Below are positions 43,650-46,144 of a stretch of DNA of 64,000 bases, piece after piece. Under the pieces are notes generated by a model, which worked only from the letters and a program-made list of their open reading frames with translations, searched no databases and was not told the DNA's origin. Origin of the DNA: Candidatus Nanopelagicus hibericus (GTDB lineage Bacteria > Actinomycetota > Actinomycetes > Nanopelagicales > Nanopelagicaceae); contig NZ_CP016771.1 of assembly GCF_002288005.1 (NCBI RefSeq), positions 682,001 through 746,000 on the forward strand. Direction: 5' to 3'. Numbering within the stretch: the first letter of the stretch is position 1; each line of letters starts with the position of its first letter. The position numbers and the translations under genes were made by a program.

Positions 43650-44029
43650 TAGCCACCTACCGAGATATCTAGAAACCTTGGGTTACTACTAGGGACCATG
43701 CCTAATTTGCTTGCTTGCTCAGCTAATTTTTCAGGTGAGGATTTTTGTGCCACTTGGCGCAAAATTGCCTCTCGCTGATCAGTTAATAGCTGCGCCTCTT
43801 GTTTGAGTTGCTTTAGCAAGAATGCATCCCTTGCGAGCGCAGTATTAATCACCAAAAGTGATAGCAGCCCTGCGGTAAAAATAGTTGCAATGAAAATTAC
43901 AAAGGTGCGCTGGGCTGCAACCTCACCAGACTTAATCTCTGGAACAAGTCGTAAAACAGCTTTGTTAGTTTTTTCGCGGACAATCTTGCGAGATATTTCT
44001 ATCGCCGGTGCTAACTCAAATATCGCCAT
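43649..44029 (-). CDS. ftsL: FtsL-like division protein
   Basis: A 126-aa bitopic protein with a cytoplasmic N-terminus (~1-40), one helix (FVIFIATIFTAGLLSLLVI, ~42-62) and an external heptad-rich segment (LLKQLKQEAQLLTDQREAILRQ cut by one turn) followed by PEKLAEQASKLGMVP. The layout and position between rsmH and ftsI are those of FtsL, which pairs with FtsB/DivIC. Sequence identity within FtsL is low, so the call rests on layout and context. Confidence 0.85.
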   Translation of the reverse strand: MAIFELAPAIEISRKIVREKTNKAVLRLVPEIKSGEVAAQRTFVIFIATIFTAGLLSLLVINTALARDAFLLKQLKQEAQLLTDQREAILRQVAQKSSPEKLAEQASKLGMVPSSNPRFLDISVGG

Positions 44030-44982
44030 TAGGCAGCCACCCGTTCAATCGCTCGAAGTCGCATCGATTGGGAACGTGGATTACTTATCTGCTCATTTTC
44101 ATCAGCACCCTGGCTGCTGCTGAGTAATAATTTGTAGCTTGCTGCTGAGTTAGGAAGCTCAACAGGTAGCCCCCGTGGGGTGGATGATTTTGTAACATTT
44201 GCAAAACACCCTTTAACAATTCGATCCTCCAGGGATTGATAAGACATCACTACCAAGCGCCCACCAATACTTAAGGCTGATAAGGCAGCTGGAATTGCTC
44301 GCTCTAAAATGGTGAGCTCTTGATTAACCTCTATCCGAATTGCTTGAAAGGTGCGCTTAGCCGGATTACCACCAGTGCGCCGAGCTGCTGCTGGAATTGA
44401 GTCTTTAACTATCTGCGCTAGATCCTTAGTGGTATTTAACTCACCGGCTGTTCGCGCCTTGATAATGTTTTCTGCGATCTTGCTAGCAAATTTTTCTTCG
44501 CCATAATTTTGTAGAATTTTTGCCAACTGTCCGTGAGAGTAGCTACTGAGTACCTGGGCTGCGGTTATGGCAGCACGCTGATCCATCCGCATATCAAGGG
44601 GTGCTTCATAGGCGTAGGAGAAGCCCCGCTCTGCCTGGTCTAGTTGCATTGAGGAGACACCTAAATCAAACAAAATTGCATCAGCGCTTTCTAATCCAGC
44701 GGTAAGAAGTGACGGTTGAATCTGATCAAATGTGGTGTTAATAAATGTGGTGCGCTTTTCATACTTAGCTAAATTAGATTTAGCGATGCTAATCGCCGAT
44801 GCATCTCGGTCTAAACCAATTAACTGTAAGTTGGGAAATCGCTCTAGAAATACCTTGGCATGGCCACCTAGACCTAGTGTGGCGTCAATTAAGTAAGGTT
44901 TAGATTTATTTTCAAGTGCTGGAGATAGCAAATCTACACAGCGCTCAACTGCCACTGGTGTGTGCGAAACCTTTGCACTCAT
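44029..44982 (-). CDS. rsmH: 16S rRNA (cytosine-1402-N4)-methyltransferase
   Basis: A 317-aa SAM-dependent methyltransferase (MraW). Seen are DATLGLGGHAKVFLERF (~33, SAM site), GLDRDASAI, ILFDLGVSSMQLD (~105), FSYAYEAPLDMRMD, and the C-terminal VVMSYQSLEDRIVK. It methylates C1402 in the decoding centre. A purine-rich run ending in AGAGG precedes its ATG; upstream lies the large stem-loop described separately. Confidence 0.96.
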   Translation of the reverse strand: MSAKVSHTPVAVERCVDLLSPALENKSKPYLIDATLGLGGHAKVFLERFPNLQLIGLDRDASAISIAKSNLAKYEKRTTFINTTFDQIQPSLLTAGLESADAILFDLGVSSMQLDQAERGFSYAYEAPLDMRMDQRAAITAAQVLSSYSHGQLAKILQNYGEEKFASKIAENIIKARTAGELNTTKDLAQIVKDSIPAAARRTGGNPAKRTFQAIRIEVNQELTILERAIPAALSALSIGGRLVVMSYQSLEDRIVKGCFANVTKSSTPRGLPVELPNSAASYKLLLSSSQGADENEQISNPRSQSMRLRAIERVAA

Positions 44983-45045
44983 TTGCCTCTCCCCCTTTTT
45001 TTCTTCTTCTTTTTCTTAGAACTTTTATTACTTTCATCTACCCAG

Positions 45046-45152
45046 ATATCTACTTAGGTCACCGCCACTTGACGGAACTTTTTTCAATAATGCGCGGCAC
45101 CGGGGAAGTGGCGCCGCGAATTTTTATAAGTGGCGGTGGCCTAAATAGATAT
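45046..45152 (-). repeat. Large two-tier stem-loop between mraZ and rsmH
   Basis: Arms of 25 bases at 45046-45070 and 45128-45152 are inverted copies with 23 of 25 positions matching. Inside them a second stem of 9 bp (45093-45101 with 45110-45118, one G-U on the minus strand) closes an 8-base loop. In the mraZ-rsmH transcript this would be a very stable structure of 107 bases that begins about 10 bases after the mraZ stop. The motif GCCACTT occurs in both the outer 5' arm and the inner hairpin, so two pairings with the 3' arm compete. No poly-U follows the structure, so a plain terminator is unlikely. Confidence 0.85.
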
Positions 45153-45162
45153 TTGTTTGGAT

Positions 45163-45597
45163 TTAGAACAATCCAGGTAGTACCTCCTCTGATACATCAG
45201 CAAAGGTTTTTTCACGATCTGCTAAATACTTACCCCAAGCAGTTTGATCCCAAATTTCAAGTCGGGTATTAGCACCAATTACTACGCAATTTTTTTCTAA
45301 GCTGGCGTAAGTTCTAAGTCCAGATGGAATATTGATTCGACCTTGGTTATCTGGCACCTCATCATGAGCACCGGCAAACATCACTCTTAAATAATCACGA
45401 GAATTTTTCTGAGTGACTGGTGCTTGACGTAATCTTTCAGTAATTAATGCAAACTCAGCTGCTGGAAAAACATAAAGGCAGTTCTCCTGACCCTTTGTTA
45501 TTACTAAACCATCTGCTAATTCATCTCTAAATCGAGCTGGCAAAATTAATCTGCCCTTTTCATCAAGTTTGGGCTCATGGGTGCCAAGAAACATCAA
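45163..45597 (-). CDS. mraZ: Transcriptional regulator MraZ
   Basis: A 144-aa MraZ with two SpoVT/AbrB-like halves: [26 protein letters not shown] cut into [12 protein letters not shown] (~12-25), and [13 protein letters not shown] (~82-95). The DxxGR pairs are the family's DNA-binding signature. MraZ forms ring oligomers that bind tandem G-rich repeats upstream of its own gene, and such an array is present at 45633-45697. First gene of the division cluster. Confidence 0.96.
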
Positions 45598-45632
45598 CTG
45601 GCCTCCCCACGCTCAGATTACGGCTTAGGCCA

Positions 45633-45697
45633 CCACTTTACTCCCTTTTTCCCCACTTTCAACCCCCCTCACCCACTATCACTCCACTACCCTCCCA
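45633..45697 (-). promoter_or_regulatory. mraZ: Predicted MraZ operator: G-rich repeats with ~10-base period
   Basis: On the minus strand, upstream of mraZ, short G-rich boxes recur at nearly constant spacing: TGGG, GTGG, GTGG, GGGG, GTGG, AGGG, GTGG. Their plus-strand complements start at 45694, 45684, 45673, 45663, 45653, 45643 and 45633. MraZ is known to bind direct repeats of TGGGN or AAAGTG type with about one helical turn between them. The array begins 36 bases from the mraZ start, where an autoregulatory site is expected. Confidence 0.65.
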
Positions 45698-45710: not shown

Positions 45711-45736
45711 ATAAAAAAACCGCCCAGATAGGCGGT
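45711..45736 (-). terminator. Intrinsic terminator after the DUF3040 gene
   Basis: On the minus strand ACCGCC and GGCGGT pair (6 bp, loop TATCTG), followed directly by seven T. It lies 20 bases after the DUF3040 stop and separates that gene from mraZ transcription. Confidence 0.8.
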
Positions 45737-45755: not shown

Positions 45756-46100
45756 TTAATTCTGGTTGTTACGCCGATCCCATCTCTCCTCGAGCCCTTG
45801 CCCCCACCCCGGCTTTTTTACCCCTTTAAAGCCAGTTTTCACCGTGAGGTTGGTGATGAAGAGCAACAATCCAGCTAGACAGATTAGAAATGCAATCACT
45901 CCCACTGCGGTGACCTGAGCGATCAGACCGCTGATCAAAACCAGCAAACCAACTACCACAATGCTTAAGCCCAAGAGCGCCCGAGAGCCCTGGCGGGTGC
46001 GAGCCTTACCGGTCAAGGTAGATAGCAGCCGTGGATCCTCTTGCTCCAATGCAGCCTCCATCTCAGCAAGAAGTTTTTTTTCGTGGTCAGAAAGTGCCAT
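45756..46100 (-). CDS. DUF3040 small membrane protein
   Basis: A 114-aa protein with the DUF3040 opening MALSDHEKKLLAEMEAAL, then two adjacent hydrophobic helices (LLGLSIVVVGLLVLISGLI and VGVIAFLICLAGLLLFI, ~43-85) and a basic, aromatic tail. The family is restricted mostly to actinobacteria and often lies just upstream of mraZ; its function is unknown. The ATG at 46100 matches the family start; a frame extending to 46118 is less likely. Confidence 0.88.
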   Translation of the reverse strand: MALSDHEKKLLAEMEAALEQEDPRLLSTLTGKARTRQGSRALLGLSIVVVGLLVLISGLIAQVTAVGVIAFLICLAGLLLFITNLTVKTGFKGVKKPGWGQGLEERWDRRNNQN

Positions 46101-46144
46101 ATTCGAAATATAGAGCACTTGACGATATTTTTAAACCTAAAGGC

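Follow-up and report, generated by a model that had tools for sequence, protein, structure and literature searches.

The element described here lies in the gap between mraZ and rsmH, within a stretch of 64,000 nucleotides (the window) from Candidatus Nanopelagicus hibericus. The genome has a size of 1.22 Mb; among named organisms, Candidatus Planktophila sp. BS7 is the closest relative (75% RsmH identity). Both mraZ and rsmH are encoded on the minus strand, so the RNA corresponds to the reverse complement and reads from 45162 down to 44983. The most likely start codon of mraZ is the ATG at 45594. The features of the locus are summarized in Table 1.

Table 1. Features of the mraZ–rsmH locus, in window coordinates.
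Feature	Position	Strand	Basis or remark
mraZ	45163-45597	minus	ORF; two MraZ domains in PF02381 search
rsmH (mraW), 16S rRNA methyltransferase	44029-44982	minus	ORF; RsmH relatives in 56 of 60 genomes
MraZ-box-like repeats AAAGTGGGGA/AAAAGGGAGT/AAAGTGGTGG, 10 nt each	45630-45662	minus	overlap the promoter-like TTGAAA-N16-TAAAGT of mraZ
mraZ Shine-Dalgarno GGGGAGG	45602-45608	minus	can pair with 7 of 7 loop bases (one G·U)
mraW RNA (RF01746) match	45036-45158	minus	cmscan 31.4 bits, full length, model 1-107
Outer stem, 5′ arm	45128-45152	minus	covarying pairs, columns 4-28 of alignment A1; begins 10 nt past the mraZ stop
C·A mismatch in outer stem	A 45059, partner C 45139	minus	kept in 32 of 35 sequences
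Inner stem, 5′ strand	45110-45118	minus	columns 42-50 of A1; 97.5% of cells paired
Apical loop ACUUCCCC	45102-45109	minus	CUUCCCC invariant in 35 of 35 aligned sequences and 60 of 60 held-out loci
Inner stem (9 bp), 3′ strand	45093-45101	minus	columns 59-67 of A1
Internal loop, unpaired strand GUUCCGUC	45071-45078	minus	UCCGU invariant in the window's family; unmatched in the RF01746 consensus
Outer stem, 3′ arm	45046-45070	minus	columns 90-114 of A1
rsmH Shine-Dalgarno GGGGGAG	44989-44995	minus	complementary to 7 of 7 bases of CUUCCCC

The three 10-nt repeats at the promoter-like site of mraZ likely form a MraZ operator for autorepression, and AAAGTGG was found upstream of mraZ in 57 of 58 held-out relatives. 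The leader of mraZ (approximately 45601–45633, minus strand) contains a possible short hairpin, UGGCC/GGCCA, around the mraZ Shine-Dalgarno (SD) sequence; in relatives this hairpin reads UGACCU/AGGUCA, and the changes seen inside the genus appear to be compensatory. Directly upstream of the promoter region, a terminator-like hairpin with a T-run (45719–45736, minus strand) divides mraZ from a gene for a small membrane protein (45756–46118). Pairing of the 5′ end of the mraZ mRNA (GGUGGCCUAA) with the outer 5′ arm of the intergenic hairpin was also considered; it is perfect in the window and lost in two congeners, and this candidate was dropped.

The initial annotation had described a large stem-loop directly after mraZ, with 25-base arms that match at 23 positions and enclose a second hairpin of 9 bp. 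This description proved correct in its coordinates and its architecture. The outer arms form 23 Watson-Crick pairs and one U·G pair, giving 24 standard pairs, and contain one C·A mismatch. The 180-nt gap between the genes folds at −57.5 kcal/mol, compared with −37.1 ± 4.0 kcal/mol for shuffled sequences (z −5.1; 0 of 200 shuffles reached this value), and the linker between the second arm and the rsmH SD is purine-rich and unstructured. We aligned 35 sequences from the window's family (alignment A1), in which the AUCCGUC strand of the internal loop is invariant or nearly so and specific to this family. A second mismatch, A·C, recurs in the inner stem of 7 of the 35 sequences and also in many other families; the recurring C·A and A·C mismatches are perhaps protonated pairs.

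The covariation of the nested stem in A1 is strong. Standard pairs made up 94.5% of the pair cells, and double-sided changes were observed in 25 of 33 pairs (168 cells), values that were reached by 0 of 500 shuffles. When the pairing was slid by 1–3 columns, less than 48% of the cells were paired, and RNAalifold gave the same nested fold. The wobble pairs gave near-equal values for the two strands (91.8% and 91.3% standard pairs). In regards to the heptamers, two copies of GCCACTT and one of AAGTGGC are present as first reported, and the initial annotation had taken them as the basis of two exclusive folds, as in a switch. This second part of the claim did not hold, since the alternative pairing covaried no more than shuffles did (2 pairs, 2 cells). 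Its middle pair is broken in 23 of the 35 sequences because GCCACUU and AAGUGGC are restricted to the window's genus, outside which the heptamers read GCCGACC and GGCCGGC. Conserved competing pairings, as in a two-state RNA switch, were sought across the 35 sequences and were not found.

Weinberg et al. (2010; PMC2864571) included the mraW RNA motif among the probable structured RNAs of Actinomycetales, and RNA-seq has detected it in C. glutamicum and C. diphtheriae (PMC3890552, PMC5784534). The window element was the best and sole match to the corresponding model, RF01746, in the whole genome (E 6.6e-5). The score is below the gathering threshold of 50 bits, which is a curator's cut-off and no feature of the RNA itself, and a standard scan is consequently silent. 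The E values of RF01746 reached 3.7e-7 among relatives in the window's family, and matches were obtained in the genus (22 of 25 genomes, several of them weakly) and in the class (178 of 247 genomes at E 0.01); in the phylum outside the class, one genome matched, weakly. A covariance model built from the 35 sequences of the family (R1) gave hits in the rsmH leaders of most of the 84 loci examined from other actinobacterial families, with E values down to 5e-14. Within the order, R1 matched in 118 of 121 genomes, including all 102 of those that are at least 90% complete. RF01746 finds the window element and R1 finds the loci of the other families, which shows homology in both directions. The features of mraW RNA are present, namely a CUUCCCC loop on a covarying hairpin and a position upstream of mraW/rsmH in Actinobacteria. 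The stem-loop is a divergent member of mraW RNA, in the form found in Candidatus Planktophila and its relatives, and this membership in a known family had been missed in the initial annotation. One draft genome of the window's family (G530) contained two full-strength matches, on contigs C27 and C53, perhaps because it represents a strain mixture.

A DNA search of the genome with the element yielded no matches beyond the element itself and its two arms, and the covariance-model search returned the same place alone, on two strands. Dispersed copies of the REP or MITE kind were sought across the genome by both searches, and none were found. The earlier suggestion of a small mobile palindrome is therefore not tenable, as the element is single copy and keeps a fixed place across the order (118 of 121 genomes). 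The element resembles an intrinsic terminator in being a GC-rich intergenic hairpin; this type was rejected because the stem is followed by a purine-rich linker and a gene instead of a U-tract. A promoter scan gave no promoter-like site between the hairpin and rsmH.

We measured the spacing of the loop from both genes in 190 loci that contain mraZ and rsmH. The loop lay a median of 53–58 nt past the mraZ stop, with a standard deviation of 11 nt in the window's family and 22 nt outside it. The standard deviation of the distance from the loop to the rsmH start was 18 nt in the family and 84 nt outside it, and this distance extended up to 386 nt. In some loci, the variability on the rsmH side arises because an extra small ORF intervenes; in four of these from several actinobacterial families (L012, L018, L226, and L230), the ORF lies between the mraW RNA and rsmH, and the RNA stays beside mraZ. 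Streptomyces-type genomes have lost mraZ, PF02381 being absent in nearly all sampled members of f19. The loop was lost in 17 of 33 Streptomyces-type loci without mraZ, in some of which the outer stem is still visible, and in 0 of 194 loci with mraZ, where one locus alone (L102) does not have the exact heptamer and carries the hairpin with a variant loop, AAUUCCCCA. The losses are not independent events, because all of them fall in one clade. In five Streptomyces-type loci without mraZ (L107, L108, L116, L129, and L266), a mraZ-like promoter precedes rsmH, and the mraW RNA is decayed or absent. That the RNA is tied to mraZ appears to be a new result.

The idea that the loop pairs with the SD was formed on a first set of 43 loci and then tested on 60 further genomes that had been held out. 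The rsmH SD can pair with 7 of 7 loop bases in 97 of the 103 lineage loci (40 of 43 in the first set and 57 of 60 in the held-out set). Among the 21 permutations, the real loop ranked first in each set, the next-best permuted loop reaching 26 in the first and 44 in the held-out set. The mraZ SD can pair with the loop in 54 of 58 held-out loci. In the window's own genome, such a heptamer occurs at 5 of 381 gene starts, mraZ and rsmH being among the 5. For two further genes that carry this heptamer, 0 of 29 and 0 of 17 relatives (0 of 46 together) retain it, and conservation of the SD heptamer through mere inheritance is therefore unlikely. The loop:SD duplex of the window was calculated at −12.0 kcal/mol and the anti-SD:SD duplex at −11.4 kcal/mol, values that do not include the cost of a long-range pseudoknot. 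Since the loop is invariant, no compensatory change between loop and SD is visible; the SD position opposite the loop U varies between A and G only, both of which are pairing-competent. One outlier of the lineage (L023) keeps the loop and has no complement.

Loci outside the lineage conserve the loop equally well, but only 7 of 166 have an rsmH SD complementary to it, a count below that of the permuted loops. At 40–200 nt past the loop, the real loop likewise ranked below the permuted loops outside the lineage. General SD pairing across actinobacteria was therefore rejected, and pairing with the rsmH SD cannot be the general function of mraW RNA. The conserved loop without a matching SD elsewhere indicates that the loop–SD pairing is either lineage-specific or was added to an older function. 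The exact complementarity within the lineage appears to be a new result. The mraW RNA papers that were consulted name no mechanism and contain no demonstration of rsmH cis-regulation; an earlier remark on loop and SD may exist in their supplements.

We regard the element as probably a lineage form of mraW RNA that acts in cis as a hairpin inside the mraZ-rsmH-ftsL mRNA. It is quite likely that a post-transcriptional action on the mraZ-led transcript sets the output of rsmH and the downstream genes relative to mraZ, and the earlier suggestion that the element sets expression of rsmH and the division cluster is plausible in view of the conserved covarying structure after mraZ. The transcript would start at the mraZ promoter (TTGAAA-N16-TAAAGT under the MraZ-like boxes). 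The apical loop would then pair with the rsmH ribosome-binding site, GGGGRAG, located 100–140 nt downstream, over the flexible purine-rich linker, and might pair likewise with the similar site of mraZ. The loop would compete with the ribosome for the rsmH SD and so prevent ribosomes from entering. The base of the stem could be loosened by ribosomes that finish mraZ, whose stop lies 10 nt ahead of the stem. We put forward this loop–SD mechanism for the Planktophila lineage, possibly including the mraZ site, as a tentative proposal with slightly less than an even chance of being right. The loop must have a different partner in the other families. Somewhat unlikely is the complete scheme in which the Planktophila-lineage loop would be an intramolecular antisense element on the mraZ and rsmH ribosome-binding sites, coupling translation of the cluster's repressor and its first enzyme, and would have an older, mraZ-dependent function elsewhere. 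Counting against the proposed mechanism, 5′-end mapping in C. glutamicum and C. diphtheriae placed an end within or past the motif (PMC3890552, PMC5784534), so that part of the rsmH mRNA in these corynebacteria is without the hairpin.

The conservation of the loop across the class, even without a matching SD, is also what would be seen if the hairpin were an operator RNA, with MraZ, RsmH, or a ribosomal protein binding the CUUCCCC loop and feeding back on expression. The loss of the loop only in lineages without mraZ, and the conservation of the C·A mismatch and the internal-loop strand, as in protein-binding RNAs, are consistent with this explanation. MraZ is a DNA-binding protein, however, that is not known to bind RNA, and the SD complementarity of the lineage would be left unexplained; we consider protein binding unlikely. 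A processing or stability element is also unlikely. In such an element, RNase III would cut the stem, or the stem would block exonucleases, and the mRNAs of mraZ and rsmH would decay separately. The 24-bp stem directly past mraZ, its tight distance to the mraZ stop, the corynebacterial 5′ ends inside the motif, and an RNase III cleavage reported within the mraZ mRNA of C. glutamicum (Maeda 2016, cited in PMC8247434) all agree with processing, but the reported site is in the mraZ coding region, and the invariant apical loop and its complementarity to the SD would not be accounted for. It is very doubtful that the likeness between the SD heptamers and the loop stems from a shared resemblance to the MraZ DNA boxes (GTGGGGA) and not from pairing: box-like repeats (AAAGTGGGGA) do lie upstream of mraZ, and the mraZ SD reads GTGGGGAGG, but the rsmH SD lacks both tandem boxes and a preceding T, and the hairpin covariation shows selection on RNA pairing. 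The two-state switch is almost certainly wrong despite the heptamer copies in the window, as its alternative pairing, confined to the genus, does not covary and both stems, each far more stable, would need to open.

The favoured reading, a cis-acting mraW RNA hairpin, offers two concrete and cheap tests of function, the dependence on mraZ and the loop–SD complementarity. The results also extend the mraW RNA family to an abundant, streamlined freshwater lineage that was missed by the cut-off of Rfam.

The element shares with the mraW RNA motif the position in the mraZ–rsmH gap, the nested hairpin, the CUUCCCC loop, and the full-length match both ways. It differs from the mraW RNA consensus in its AT-rich outer stem, its GGCCAC/GUGACC core, the extra conserved AUCCGUC strand in the internal loop, and a score below the gathering threshold; furthermore, its SD is complementary to the loop, and its lineage is absent from the original list (Actinomycetales). 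In the mechanism that we propose, RNA pairing would occlude the SD as it does in SD-sequestering leader RNAs, such as RNA thermometers and translational riboswitches, with which the element shares an SD complementary to a conserved unpaired segment (97 of 103 lineage loci), whereas the pairing predicted here would join a loop to an SD across more than 100 nt.
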